A DNA stretch of 42,010 bases from Candidatus Palauibacter australiensis (GTDB lineage: Bacteria; Gemmatimonadota; Gemmatimonadetes; Palauibacterales; Palauibacteraceae), in the NCBI GenBank assembly GCA_026705295.1, contig JAPPBA010000023.1, positions 1 to 42,010 on the forward strand, read 5' to 3'. The notes below the pieces were generated by a model. It searched no databases, was not told the DNA's origin, and saw only the letters and a program-made list of their open reading frames with translations. The stretch's first letter is position 1; every line of letters starts with the position of its first letter. Shown in pieces: positions 1 to 41,789 of the stretch. Position numbers and translations under genes: made by a program.

Positions 1-64
1 AGGGACTCGAACCCCCAACCGCCGGTTTTGGAGACCGGTGCTCTACCAATTGAGCTACGCCCCT
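1..64 (-). tRNA. tRNA-Trp (CCA), 3' end cut off by window edge
   Basis: Read on the minus strand, the 5' acceptor strand AGGGGCG is followed by a D-arm (TAGCTCAATTGGTAGAGCA), an anticodon stem CCGGT/ACCGG with loop CTCCAAA (anticodon CCA) and a T-arm with GGTTCGA. The 3' acceptor strand and discriminator lie left of base 1. In many bacteria tRNA-Trp sits just upstream of secE-nusG and the rplK ribosomal operon, so those genes may lie left of the window. That is inference only. Confidence 0.93.
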
Positions 65-94
65 CTGCCGCTTCCCGCGAACCGGCCGTCGGCG

Positions 95-199
95 GCCCGT
101 GGCAAATGGCTGGGGGCGGAGTCGAACCGCCGACACCGGCGTTTTCAGCGCCGTGCTCTACCGCCTGAGCTACCCAGCCCTTTGGCAGCCCGTGGCAAA
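95..199. repeat. 12-bp direct repeat in the tRNA spacers
   Basis: The 12-mer GCCCGTGGCAAA occurs at 95-106 and again at 188-199, in the spacers on either side of tRNA-Phe. The first copy directly abuts the 3' end of tRNA-Phe. The flanking bases are also similar. It is either the remnant of a tRNA-plus-spacer duplication or a shared processing sequence. Confidence 0.6.
107..179 (-). tRNA. tRNA-Phe (GAA)
   Basis: On the minus strand the acceptor strands GGCTGGG and CCCAGCC pair over 7 bp. The D-arm is TAGCTCAGGCGGTAGAGCA, the anticodon stem is CGGCG/CGCCG with loop CTGAAAA (anticodon GAA), and the T-loop is GGTTCGA. The discriminator is A and no CCA is encoded. The length of 73 nt is standard. 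Confidence 0.95.
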
Positions 200-211
200 G
201 GCCCGGCTGCA

Positions 212-284
212 CTCCGGGGGTGGGATTCGAACCCACGACCTAGTGGTTAACAGCCACCCGCTCTGGCCACTGAGCTACCCCGGA
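212..284 (-). tRNA. tRNA-Asn (GTT)
   Basis: On the minus strand the acceptor strands TCCGGGG and CCCCGGA pair over 7 bp with a G discriminator. The anticodon loop CTGTTAA gives anticodon GTT. The T-arm is GTGGGTTCGAATCCCAC. The length is 73 nt and CCA is not encoded. Confidence 0.95.
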
Positions 285-291
285 TCGTACC

Positions 292-315
292 CCGATCCCG
301 CAAAAAAGGGATCGG
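292..315. other. Hairpin between tRNA-fMet and tRNA-Asn
   Basis: A perfect 8-bp inverted repeat, CCGATCCC and GGGATCGG, encloses an 8-nt A-rich loop (six Ts when read on the minus strand). It sits 7 nt upstream of tRNA-Asn in the direction of transcription. It could be part of a termination or processing structure, and no function is assigned. Confidence 0.45.
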
Positions 316-320
316 AGAGC

Positions 321-351
321 AAAACGCCTCGCCCCGCAGCTTTGCGAGGCG
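321..351 (-). terminator. Rho-independent-like terminator after tRNA-fMet
   Basis: On the minus strand an 8-bp stem (CGCCTCGC at 344-351, GCGAGGCG at 325-332) is followed directly by four Ts (321-324). It begins 10 nt after the tRNA-fMet 3' end. The GC-rich stem with a T tract is the classic intrinsic terminator layout, although the T tract is short. It suggests that tRNA-fMet is not always co-transcribed with the three tRNAs beyond it. Confidence 0.5.
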
Positions 352-361
352 AGGCGAGAGA

Positions 362-435
<74 letters not shown>

Positions 436-37522: not shown

Positions 37523-38317
37523 TTACCGGCCGCGGTAGATGGGGGCGCGTTTCTCTGCGAAGGCCTCCAGGCCCTCGCGCCAGTCCTCGGAGGCCATGCA
37601 GGTGAAGAGCGCTTCAGCCTCCAGGCGCAGCGCCTCCCCGGGGTCGACGGACTCCGCCCGGTCGAGCAGGCGCTTGGCGAGGCGCATGGAGATCGGGGCG
37701 TTGCGGGCCAGCTGGCCGGCGAGGTCGAGCGCGGCGGGGAGAACCTTTTCGGCGGGGAGCACCTCGTTCGCCAACCCCCACGCGCCCGCTTCCTCCGGGG
37801 TAAAGTAGCGGCCCAGCAGGATCAGTTCGGCCGCGCGCGCGTGTCCCACGCGCCGGCGCAGCGTGTAGGCCGTGCCGCCGCCGATGAAGGTCCCGAGCGC
37901 AACTTCCGGCATGCGCAGCTTCGCCCCCTCCGCCACGATGACGAAATCGCACGAGAGGGCGAGTTCGCAGCCCGCCCCGATCGCGTGTCCGTTCACGGCC
38001 GCGACCACGGGCTGCGGCAGCGTCTGGAGCGCGCGGAACACGCGCTGGCTCGTCTCGATGTAGGCGTGGCGCTCCGCCCGCGACGCCTCGTGGTCGCGGT
38101 GTGCCTTGAGGTCGGCCCCGGAGCAGAATCCCCGCCCGGTCCCGGTCACGACGACGACGCGCGTCTCGAAGTCCGCTCCGATCCGGGCGAGTTCGGCTTC
38201 CAGCGCCTCGTACATGGGGAGGCTGACGGCGTTGAGACGGCGGGGACGGTTGAGGCGGAGGATCCGGACGGGACCCTCCGCCTCGACCAGGAGCGGGACT
38301 TCTGCGGCGGCGCTCAG
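37523..38317 (-). CDS. Enoyl-CoA hydratase/isomerase family, apparent CTG start
   Basis: A crotonase-fold enzyme that hydrates enoyl-CoA. Both catalytic glutamates are present: E118 in GAGCELALSCD and E138 in MPEVALGTF. The oxyanion residues lie in CSGADL and GHAIGAG. The first ATG (38215) would remove the N-terminal strand VRILRLNRPRRLNAVS that the family requires. The open frame continues upstream with no ATG, GTG or TTG before an in-frame stop. The only near-cognate start in place is CTG at 38317, which overlaps the upstream stop as CTGA and gives 264 residues, the family norm. The exact substrate is unknown. Confidence 0.82.
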   Translation of the reverse strand: MSAAAEVPLLVEAEGPVRILRLNRPRRLNAVSLPMYEALEAELARIGADFETRVVVVTGTGRGFCSGADLKAHRDHEASRAERHAYIETSQRVFRALQTLPQPVVAAVNGHAIGAGCELALSCDFVIVAEGAKLRMPEVALGTFIGGGTAYTLRRRVGHARAAELILLGRYFTPEEAGAWGLANEVLPAEKVLPAALDLAGQLARNAPISMRLAKRLLDRAESVDPGEALRLEAEALFTCMASEDWREGLEAFAEKRAPIYRGR

Positions 38318-40782
38318 CTTCCCGCGTCGTCCGTCGTGGTGACGGGCTTCGCAGGCTTCACGTGCATCTCAAGCCAGCGGTCTGTCTCCCACAGGACGTG
38401 CAGGACCGACTCGCGCGCCGCGTAGCCGTGGCTCTCGGCCGGCAGGAAGACGAGCCGCGCCGTCGCGCCCAGCCCCTTGAGCGCCGCGTAGAAGCGCCGT
38501 GACTGAATGGGGAAGGTGCCCGAGTTGTTGTCGTCCTCGCCGTGGATGATGAGGATGGGCTCGTTCACCTTGTCGGCGTGCATGAAGGGCGACATGTACA
38601 GGTAGAGGTCCGGGTCCTCCCAGAAGAGCCGCTGCTCCCGCTGGAAGCCGAACGGCGTCAGGGTCCGGTTGTACGCGCCGCTGCGCGCCACGCCGGCCCG
38701 GAAGATGTCCGAGTGGGCGAGCAGGTTGCCGGTCATGAAGGCGCCGTAGGAGTGTCCGCCGACGCCGACCCGGTCCGGATCCACGACCCCGCGCCGTACG
38801 CCCTCGTCCACCGCCGCCTGGGCGTTCGCCACCAACTGCTGGCGGAAGGTGTCGTTGGGCTCCGCGTCGCCCTCGCCGATCACCGGCATCGACGCGTTGT
38901 CGAGCACGGCGTAGCCCCGGGTGACGTACGGCACGGCACCGCCGTAGGGGATCCGCGTGAACTGGTAGGGCGAGTCCCGCCGCTGGCCGGCCGCCGCCGC
39001 GCTCTTGAACTCGGTCGGATACGCCCACACGAAGGTCGGGAGCGGACCATCGCGCTCCTGGTCATAGTCCGCCGGCAGGTAGAGCGTCGCCGAAAGCGGG
39101 ATGCCGTCCCCGCGCTCGTACTGGATCGCCTCCTTGCGGACGCCGGCGAACTGCGGATACGGGTGCGGGAATTCGGTCACGGCGCTGATCGTCCCCCGCT
39201 CGAGGTCGCGCAGGAAGTAGTTCGGGGGCTCGTCCACCGACTCCCGCCGCGTCATCAGCCGCCCGTCGTCGAGGAGCGTGACCACGCCCTCGTAGTACGG
39301 CGCCTCCGAGCGGAACAACTCCTCTTCCGCCCCCGTTTCGAGGTTCCGCTTCCTGAGGAAGGGACGGTTGCCTTCCGGCGAAGCGCCCTGCCCCGCCAAG
39401 TAGATCGAGGACCCGCCGTCGGCGGTCATGAGGACGCCCCGGCCGCGCGCGTTCGTCGTGAACATCGGGAAGCCGGGGTTGTTGTAGCGGTCCTCCGTCT
39501 GGAGGTCGAAGATCAGCTCCATCTCGCCCGGGGCGTCCGGGTCGATTCGGTAAGTGCGCTGCTGGCGGGTGGAGAACCAGTTCTCGTTCAGGAAGGCGAA
39601 TCCCTCCTCCGCCCATATCACGCCGCCGTAGCGGAGCGGGAGATCCGCGATCGCGACGGGCTCGCCGGAGAAGGGCGCCGCGTGCATGAACACCCGGTCG
39701 CGGATGTCCGCCTCGGCGAGAGCGTCGCCGCCGTCCTGCGCCTCCGTCCAATAAAGCGTCGCGTCCGCGTCGGCGCGCCACGCGATCGACCGCACGCCCG
39801 TCGGCACCGACCCGAACGACGTGGGGACGCCATCCTGGAGCGGGAGTTCCGCGACCTCGTGCACTACGTTCCCCTGCGCGTCCCACACTTCGATCGTCCT
39901 CGGGAAGCGGGAGGCCGGCACCTGGTACGAGTACGGCCGGTGGGTCGTCTGCACGAGCAGGTGCTCGCCATCCGGCGATGGCGAGGCGCCCGAGAAGATC
40001 GACGGATCGCCGACCATGGCCACCGACCCGTCGAGGCCGACGCGGGCCAGCTGCGCCGTCGAGTAGTACTGGTAGAGCGCCTCATCGTGCTGGTTCTGCA
40101 GCAGGTCCTGATACGTGCGGGCGGGGGCCGCCTCCCCCGACGTCTCCTCGATCATGGGCGCCGTCGGCACCATCGGCTCGGCGGGCGCCGGGCCGCGGCC
40201 GGGCGGCGCCGCCATGGCGTAGAGGAAATCTCCTTCCGGAGACCAGTTGAACGGGGCCCCGAAGCCGACATTCACGAGGTCGAGGTCCGACAGCCGCCGC
40301 GCCGCCGCGGAGGCGACGTCCAGTATCCAGAGCTGCACGGCCGAGTCGGTGTCGTGCGTGAACGCCACCGCGCTCCCGTTCGGCGACCAGCGCGTGTTGC
40401 GGATGCGCGGGTTCGTCGGCAGCCCGGTCACGGTACGCTCTTCGCCGTCGAACGTGCGAAGCGCCAGCCCGTTGGAGGGCCGCGCGCGGCTGGGGCCGTT
40501 CGTGCGCGGGTTGATGCGGAGCCCGGCGATCCGCAGCTCGGGCGCCGCCACCTCGGCGATCGACGGCAGGCTGGGCCGCATCGTGAGCAGCATCACCGAT
40601 TCGTCGGGGCTCAGACTGATGCCCGGCGTCGCCGGGGCGTCGACGAGCGCGGCGAGTTCGGCGGCCGGCGTCTGGTATCCGTCCGCTCCCTCCTGCGCGG
40701 CGACCTCCGTCGTGGCCGCGGCGAGGAGGAACGCGAAGGAGAGGGAAAGTCGAAGGACTCGGGGACTGTGATCGTGTCGCAT
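38314..40782 (-). CDS. Exported prolyl oligopeptidase family (S9) serine peptidase
   Basis: An 822-residue protein with a signal peptide ending near TEVAAQ. An N-terminal beta-propeller (repeats such as NTRWSPNGSAVAFTHD and FNWSPEGDFLYAM) caps the C-terminal alpha/beta hydrolase. The triad lies in GGHSYGAFM (Ser near 678), HGEDDNNSGTF (Asp near 745) and PAESHGY (His near 785). This is the acylaminoacyl-peptidase/DPP-like S9 layout. It probably clips short peptides outside the cytoplasm. The start is ATG 40782. An open frame continues upstream with no signal peptide and is not used. Confidence 0.93.
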   Translation of the reverse strand: MRHDHSPRVLRLSLSFAFLLAAATTEVAAQEGADGYQTPAAELAALVDAPATPGISLSPDESVMLLTMRPSLPSIAEVAAPELRIAGLRINPRTNGPSRARPSNGLALRTFDGEERTVTGLPTNPRIRNTRWSPNGSAVAFTHDTDSAVQLWILDVASAAARRLSDLDLVNVGFGAPFNWSPEGDFLYAMAAPPGRGPAPAEPMVPTAPMIEETSGEAAPARTYQDLLQNQHDEALYQYYSTAQLARVGLDGSVAMVGDPSIFSGASPSPDGEHLLVQTTHRPYSYQVPASRFPRTIEVWDAQGNVVHEVAELPLQDGVPTSFGSVPTGVRSIAWRADADATLYWTEAQDGGDALAEADIRDRVFMHAAPFSGEPVAIADLPLRYGGVIWAEEGFAFLNENWFSTRQQRTYRIDPDAPGEMELIFDLQTEDRYNNPGFPMFTTNARGRGVLMTADGGSSIYLAGQGASPEGNRPFLRKRNLETGAEEELFRSEAPYYEGVVTLLDDGRLMTRRESVDEPPNYFLRDLERGTISAVTEFPHPYPQFAGVRKEAIQYERGDGIPLSATLYLPADYDQERDGPLPTFVWAYPTEFKSAAAAGQRRDSPYQFTRIPYGGAVPYVTRGYAVLDNASMPVIGEGDAEPNDTFRQQLVANAQAAVDEGVRRGVVDPDRVGVGGHSYGAFMTGNLLAHSDIFRAGVARSGAYNRTLTPFGFQREQRLFWEDPDLYLYMSPFMHADKVNEPILIIHGEDDNNSGTFPIQSRRFYAALKGLGATARLVFLPAESHGYAARESVLHVLWETDRWLEMHVKPAKPVTTTDDAGS

Positions 40783-40880: not shown

Positions 40881-41081
40881 AAAAAGTCCGAACCGCCCAT
40901 GGCGCACGCAAGACGCGCCGGACCTGGGGGGCACGCCGGCGCCGCCGCCCCGGGCGCGCCGGTACGGCCGCCCCGACCGTCCCTGCTGTCGCGCGGCCCC
41001 CCGGTGCGATAGCGTTGCCGGGCCGGCGAACGACGGCGGCGTTCGCGGGCGCAAACAGAAGAGAAAAAGGGAGACAGGGAG

Positions 41082-41789
41082 ATGCGGATGATGGACGCGC
41101 GTTACGTCCGGTTGTGGACGGCGGGGGTTGCCGTGGCGGTCGGGTTGGCCGGCTGCGCACCCGAGGGAGACACCGGAGAAGCCGACGCCTCCACTGCGGC
41201 GGTGGCCGACGAGGCGGCAACCCAGGAGGCGGCGCAGGAGGCGGCTCAAGTGGCGCTCGGCCCCGTGGACGGGCACGACTTGCCGCCGGCGGACCTCGAG
41301 CGCGTACTCGCCGGCAGCCCCGCGCCCGACTTCACCGCCCTTTCAAGCACGGGCGAGCCGATCACGCTTTCGGATTACCGCGGAGAGAAGGACGTCATCC
41401 TCTTCTTCTACCGCGGCCACTGGTGACCGTACTGCGCAAAGCAGCTCGGAGAGCTGCGAGACTTCATGACGCCCGAACAGCGCGAACGGACCCAGCTCCT
41501 GGCGATCGCCCCCGACAGCCCCGAGGACATCGGGCTCATGGTCGACCGCGTTCTCGAGGACTACGACTACGCGCTCGACTTCCCGCTCCTGTCCGATGAC
41601 GGCTCCGCGATCACGAACCGCTACGGCCTCCTGAACGAGGACGACGGGCGCGGGCGCCAGATCCCGCACCCCACGACCTACGTCATCGACATGGACGGCA
41701 CGGTGCGCTGGAGCTTCACGGAAGTGGACTACCGAGTCCGCCCCGAACACGCCGACATCCTGGCCGCGCTCGAAGCCCTGGAGCGCTAG
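41082..41789 (+). CDS. Peroxiredoxin-like selenoprotein, lipoprotein (UGA-encoded Sec)
   Basis: The frame runs 235 codons with a single in-frame TGA at 41424-41426. Before it: a signal peptide with lipobox LAGC (C25), an Ala/Glu-rich linker, then the thioredoxin-fold start APDFTALSSTGEPITLSDYR and VILFFYRGHW. The TGA (position 115) is followed by PYCAKQLGELRDF. Cys relatives of this AhpC/TSA-like group read GxWCPYC, so TGA replaces the first Cys of a CxxC motif and C118 is kept. After it: LLAIAPDS, LDFPLLSDD, PTTYVIDMDGTVRWSF, all family-like. I read it as a Sec-containing (UxxC) thiol peroxidase anchored outside the cytoplasm. A nonsense mutation is the alternative. Confidence 0.85.
41424..41457 (+). 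promoter_or_regulatory. Selenocysteine UGA and putative bacterial SECIS hairpin
   Basis: The TGA at 41424-41426 is followed by 14 nt and then a perfect 7-bp stem, GCAGCTC (41441-41447) and GAGCTGC (41451-41457), with loop GGA (41448-41450). Bacterial SECIS elements lie just 3' of the UGA inside the coding region, with an apical loop roughly 16-37 nt away and a G among its first two bases. Here the loop starts 21 nt after the UGA and begins with G. The hairpin also encodes part of the protein. Confidence 0.8.

Follow-up and report, generated by a model that had tools for sequence, protein, structure and literature searches.

A 2005 paper (PMC1088965) reported peroxiredoxin-like (Prx-like) selenoproteins in which UXXC replaces TXXU, and Prx-like UxxC selenoproteins form a published class (PMC1088965, PMC2398784, PMC13188914). 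One of its members, the GOS family Prx-like 1 (PF00578, UxxC), is among the commonest GOS families and comprises 225 Sec and 2,740 Cys sequences. The gene analyzed here, from a marine member of the Gemmatimonadota (Candidatus Palauibacter), shares with the Prx-like UxxC/UxxU selenoproteins of the GOS Prx-like 1 kind the PF00578 domain, a UxxC that replaces TxxU, and a bacterial SECIS element after the UGA, and by the published criteria of domain and Sec motif it belongs to the Prx-like UxxC selenoproteins. It differs from Prx-like 1 in that the Palauibacter protein appears to be exported and lipid-anchored, and in that Sec forms greatly outnumber Cys forms in the Gemmatimonadota clade, whereas Cys forms greatly outnumber Sec forms in GOS. 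A preliminary description of this DNA had announced a probable new selenoprotein; the gene and the lineage are indeed new, but the class had already been published. The Gemmatimonadota branch is Sec-dominant and apparently undescribed.

Other described systems resemble the protein in part. The Sec peroxiredoxins of the TxxU type (PrxU, NF040737) belong to the same overall fold family (38.2 bits), but here Sec occupies the Thr position rather than that of the peroxidatic Cys, neither the catalytic Pro nor the catalytic Arg is present, and the score lies far below the cut-off of 270. The NCBIfam model PRK09437 (BCP) likewise scored below its cut-off (58.4 versus 140). The SelL-related redox proteins (NF040769) are also Prx-like and gave a weak match (37 bits, cut-off 120), but the present protein has a single UxxC rather than UxxU. 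The ResA/TlpA proteins share with it a WCxxC-type motif, export, the thioredoxin fold and a Pro in the cis-Pro place; their structures also match in sequence and fold. The domain is nevertheless closer to AhpC/TSA and to peroxiredoxin structures, it has Sec for Cys, and the NCBIfam ResA model, although the second-best match, reached 47.8 against a cut-off of 170. The closest solved fold is that of AhpE, the 1-Cys Prx of M. tuberculosis (1xvw/4x1u; TM about 0.8 by target length, 29-30% identity), but AhpE is a 1-Cys peroxidase with a PxxxTxxC/Arg site that is absent in the Palauibacter protein.

The selenoprotein gene and its surroundings

The window, meaning the whole stretch of 42,010 nucleotides that was analyzed, is contig C23 of a draft genome of 3.58 Mb that is 95.5% complete. 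The following features concern the gene and its surroundings:

41082..41789, plus strand: selenoprotein gene, 235 residues including one selenocysteine (translation; homologues with the same TGA)
41069..41073, plus strand: probable ribosome-binding site GGGAG, 8 nt 5' of the ATG at 41082 (from the sequence)
41424..41426, plus strand: UGA codon for selenocysteine, residue 115 (translation, family alignment)
38314-40779, minus strand: gene of an S9-family peptidase, in divergent orientation to the selenoprotein gene (arrangement kept across the genus)
1-435, minus strand: tRNA gene cluster (Phe, Asn, Met, and another truncated at the contig edge)

In translation, the frame 41082-41789 consists of 114 codons, a TGA as codon 115 (41424-41426), 120 further codons and a TAG. 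The open reading frame list of the window contained it as two separate halves, 41082-41426 and 41466-41789, and a standard pipeline would therefore split the gene at the TGA, as had been anticipated in the preliminary description, and so hide it. That description had also taken both sides of the TGA for one protein, with the TGA at the first Cys of a GxWCPYC motif. Both points are borne out: the Pfam AhpC-TSA match (PF00578; residues 78-210, 3e-30, 105.2 bits versus a gathering score of 26, with the TGA read as a residue) crosses the TGA, spanning residues 77-223 together with a Redoxin match (1e-21), and the motif is FFYRGHW-U-PYC, with homologues carrying the Cys of WCPYC at this place. The nearest named relative of the organism is Candidatus Palauibacter rhopaloidicola (97% protein identity), which places it as a Palauibacter species within the Gemmatimonadota.

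On the evidence given below, the frame is almost certainly a genuine selenoprotein gene with Sec decoding of codon 115. To the explanation as a whole, in which a SECIS element directs Sec decoding of an exported Prx-like thiol:disulfide oxidoreductase, we would assign a probability of roughly 0.88.

Besides the divergent S9 peptidase, the gene is flanked by a convergent short-chain dehydrogenase. Examination of these two neighbours for a client or reductant implied no partner, and the neighbourhood is kept only within the genus.

A second Prx-like selenoprotein was observed in the same genome outside the window (L153:878-1480; G000:C172:6089-6679), with the motif FFRGRW-U-PYC and a PF00578 domain. 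It is about 33% identical to the first, and its one TGA is kept in 15/17 of the Palauibacter genomes searched.

Active site and proposed function

Two residues besides Sec115 are central to the reading of the active site:

41433..41435, plus strand: Cys118, partner of Sec115 in UPYC, present in 60/61 family members (family alignment)
41670..41672, plus strand: Pro197 in HPTT, invariant, standing where peroxiredoxins have their catalytic Arg and equivalent to the thioredoxin-fold cis-Pro (alignment; cis geometry predicted)

The UxxC active-site motif of Prx-like PF00578 selenoproteins is present as UPYC. In an alignment to AhpE and an archaeal Prx, the catalytic Pro of the peroxiredoxins corresponds to Arg111, the catalytic Thr to Sec115, the peroxidatic Cys to Cys118 and the Arg to Pro197, so that only the Cys of the peroxiredoxin catalytic set (Pro, Thr, Cys/Sec, Arg) is kept; R111, W114 and P197 are invariant in 61 family members. 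The elements of a ResA/TlpA-type site are all found, namely W-U-P-Y-C, Pro197 with its presumed cis geometry, and a lipobox or signal peptide. In an AlphaFold2 model (pLDDT 71.5) with a confident core and a disordered N-terminus, Sec115 sits just ahead of helix 116-128, at its N-terminal end, and Foldseek matched this model to AhpE, Bcp and ResA. Read from these alignments, the protein is built on an AhpC/TSA scaffold, and its active site is of the thioredoxin/ResA type, combining W-U-x-x-C with a Pro in the cis-Pro place.

A protein that is mainly a peroxidase, in which Sec115 or Cys118 would reduce extracytoplasmic peroxides and the other residue would resolve, could account for the nearest folds and sequences being those of the 1-Cys Prx AhpE and the BCP/PrxQ peroxiredoxins, for Cys118 sitting at the place of the peroxidatic Cys, and for AhpC-TSA being the best Pfam family. 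We nevertheless consider it unlikely, as the residues standing where the peroxiredoxin Pro, Thr and Arg would be are invariant in the 61 sequences except for the exchange of Sec and Cys, and the combination of WUxxC and a Pro in the cis-Pro place is that of thioredoxins. With peroxiredoxins as the closest solved structures, the protein may still have some peroxidase activity. With three of the four peroxiredoxin catalytic residues missing, classical peroxidase chemistry becomes less likely, and sequence and model together suggest that the protein is probably a thiol:disulfide oxidoreductase, which we prefer over a peroxidase. Between the two possibilities named in the preliminary description, a UxxC peroxidase or a thiol-disulfide enzyme, the latter thus fits better, and the former suffers from the absence of the catalytic Pro and Arg.

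As a thiol:disulfide oxidoreductase, the protein would use Sec115 and Cys118 as a redox pair of the UxxC type, placed where the thioredoxin-fold helix begins and facing the conserved Pro. The target of the selenolate would be a client's disulfide (or oxidised thiol), Cys118 would resolve the mixed selenide-sulfide, and the resulting Se-S bond would be re-reduced by a partner. It would act outside the cytoplasm, as a Prx-like thiol:disulfide oxidoreductase and not as a classical peroxiredoxin.

Export and lipid anchor

The N-terminal region contains the following export signal:

41082..41156, plus strand: signal peptide and lipobox LAGC, with predicted lipidated Cys25 (codon 41154-41156; translation, alignment)

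The genus and its near relatives share the lipobox VGLAGC (residues 20-25), and Cys25 is retained in 10/11 aligned relatives. Other family members have an apparent type I (cleavable) signal peptide or an N-terminal membrane anchor. Since the export signals vary in kind across the family, we infer export family-wide and lipidation locally, with the protein of Palauibacter probably exported and lipidated at Cys25. The anchoring outside the cytoplasm by a lipidated Cys25 that had been proposed earlier therefore holds for Palauibacter and its close relatives, and does not extend to the other members with their different signals.

A SECIS hairpin and selenocysteine decoding of the UGA codon

Downstream of the UGA codon we identified one further element:

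41441..41457, plus strand: SECIS hairpin, 7-bp stem GCAGCUC (41441-41447)/GAGCUGC (41451-41457), apical loop GGA (41448-41450)

The hairpin lies 15-31 nt 3' of the UGA, with nt 15-21 pairing with 25-31, and shows every property of the published bacterial SECIS model (quoted in PMC13188914): a 3-nt loop, the GG, 7 bp, 21 nt from the UGA to the loop, and -11.5 kcal/mol. Single-sequence folding of the region is unremarkable (z -0.36) and a full 7-bp stem arose in about 15% of recodings in a synonymous-recoding control, so that the SECIS claim leans on comparative data, that is, on covariation and codon choice. An Rfam search over the hairpin gave no match.

Among the 59 distinct Sec-form sequences, the stem pairs 16-20/26-30 form in all 59 and pair 21/25 in 54. 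Pair 15/31 also forms in 54/59, as U-A in 34 and G-C in 19, with no G/A or U/C combination, a covariation count that is inflated by the kinship of the sequences; as its 5' base is a third codon position and its 3' base a first, protein constraint alone would not couple the two. The apical loop is GGN or GUG across the family. Codon choice follows the stem as well: of the 59 sequences, 57 use CTC for the Leu of the 5' arm, one CTA, one CTT and none CTG, and the Leu of the 3' arm is CTG in 59/59, the CTG share of Leu codons in these genes being 40%. In the Cys forms, mismatches break the stem in all. The paralogue L105 (about 33% identical), a homologue of the second Prx-like selenoprotein, has a SECIS-like hairpin of its own, entirely different in sequence and almost identically spaced. 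Taken together, the sequence evidence indicates that the SECIS hairpin directs the decoding of UGA 115 as selenocysteine.

The Sec machinery, for which the preliminary description had suggested searching the same genome, was found in full: contig C39 carries tRNA-Sec (79.7 bits, anticodon UCA), selB (376.9 bits) and selA (488 bits), and selD lies elsewhere (L019/L128, G000:C123:5588-6514). The selD gene contains one in-frame TGA in SHGAG-U-ACKLGP, the usual Sec form of SelD (GAG-U-ACKLGP). Since selD is thus itself a selenoprotein gene, the host genome has at least three.

The TGA recurs at the codon-115 column in 76 other fetched loci from independent assemblies, about 43-97% identical; around the codon these loci fall into 59 distinct sequences, with one genome represented by two records in some cases. 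All 59 Sec forms have TGA at this column, nearly all within FYRG-x-W-U-P-[YWFH]-C. Cys homologues, which the preliminary description had proposed to align at position 115, do so: TGC stands at the Sec column in L066, L067, L068 and L033; one distant homologue, from Bacteroidota, has it in FFYRGHWCPVC. Values of dN/dS in the genus are about 0.06 on the 5' side of the TGA and 0.10 on the 3' side, calculated from within-genus pairs only, as an indel after the TGA upsets the ungapped comparison in distant pairs. Purifying selection thus acts on both flanks of the TGA.

These data bear on the other ways in which the codon could be read. That the TGA is a true stop, leaving a pseudogene or a translated 114-residue fragment, would agree with its use to end other genes here (for example the S9 peptidase) and with the two ORFs that a standard caller would give; this is very improbable, and refuted on sequence grounds, in view of the purifying selection 3' of the TGA, its position in one column across about 50% divergence, the covarying hairpin and the full Sec machinery in the genome. 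Reading of the UGA as another amino acid, by general reassignment or a suppressor tRNA, is extremely improbable: nothing speaks specifically for it, TGA terminates other genes, the Cys forms carry Cys at the Sec column, and both a SECIS and a tRNA-Sec (anticodon UCA) are present. A TGC misread in sequencing or assembly, conceivable for a single MAG contig, has a negligible probability and is refuted by independent assemblies of several origins that also show the TGA, L022 (97% identical) among them.

Distribution of Sec and Cys forms in Gemmatimonadota

We examined 395 Gemmatimonadota genomes, calling selA at E <= 1e-60. A close homologue with one in-frame TGA was present in 82 of them and a homologue without TGA in three. 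Nearly all TGA-form genomes have selA (81/82, versus 201/313 of the others; Fisher p about 1e-12, which is only indicative since the genomes are related and not independent). The single TGA-form genome that has no selA (G334) has a tRNA-Sec at 79.7 bits, and a tRNA-Sec search of the draft genome G123, which has selA and the TGA form, found none.

The three Cys-form genomes (G039, G074 and G278) belong to one genus, and no selA was found in them. The best matches in a tRNA-Sec search of these genomes were tRNA-Ser with anticodon UGA; RF01852 matches just above threshold in two of them were rejected as tRNA-Sec, being tRNA-Ser. Their genes (L067, L068 and L066, respectively) thus combine Cys for Sec and a broken SECIS stem with genomes in which neither selA nor tRNA-Sec was found. 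The Cys forms make up one clade (100/98) nested among the Sec forms in a 63-protein tree, and one state change suffices; the outgroup of this tree is distant and its root therefore weak, while the nesting of the Cys forms is well supported. The tree and the gene content point to one Sec-to-Cys conversion in this genus, accompanying loss of the Sec machinery.

Some members of the family depart from the common motif. A second copy in one genome (L076, G239:C308) has UPFS instead of UPYC, with Sec kept and the partner Cys changed to Ser. Two genes of the same small clade, L084 (G122) and L087 (G110), have the motifs WURYC and WUIYC, respectively, in which Pro116 is replaced.

Beyond the phylum, a contig scan retrieved Gemmatimonadota Sec forms, a Cys form in one Bacteroidota MAG, and two weak matches (L034 and L035), the first of which was set aside as an ordinary TlpA-like protein. 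No viral relatives were found, and the plasmid relatives all had <60% identity, none covering 80% of the query.

Discussion

Sec use appears common in Gemmatimonadota, with selA in 282/395 of the genomes sampled. The description of the Palauibacterales mentions neither selenium nor selenoproteins (PMC10469786), and in the open literature, most subscription papers being outside our search, we found no account of selenoproteins of Gemmatimonadota. With selA so frequent and no account found, this large phylum seems to possess an overlooked selenoproteome.

Change from Sec to Cys was found to be the rarer direction (PMC1794560). The nested Cys forms (82 Sec versus 3 Cys genomes), coinciding with the absence of selA, represent a clean case of it. 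We consider it an even call whether the family is a distinct exported Prx-like subfamily, found in about a fifth of the sampled Gemmatimonadota, in which Sec is ancestral, one genus lost the machinery together with a single Sec-to-Cys swap and decay of the SECIS, and the protein serves in disulfide repair or a peroxide relay outside the cytoplasm, in a pathway that differs from that of described Prx-like selenoproteins. The main interest of the finding lies in the lineage, in the Sec-dominant distribution of the family, in the coupled absence of selA and Sec, and in the second Prx-like selenoprotein.
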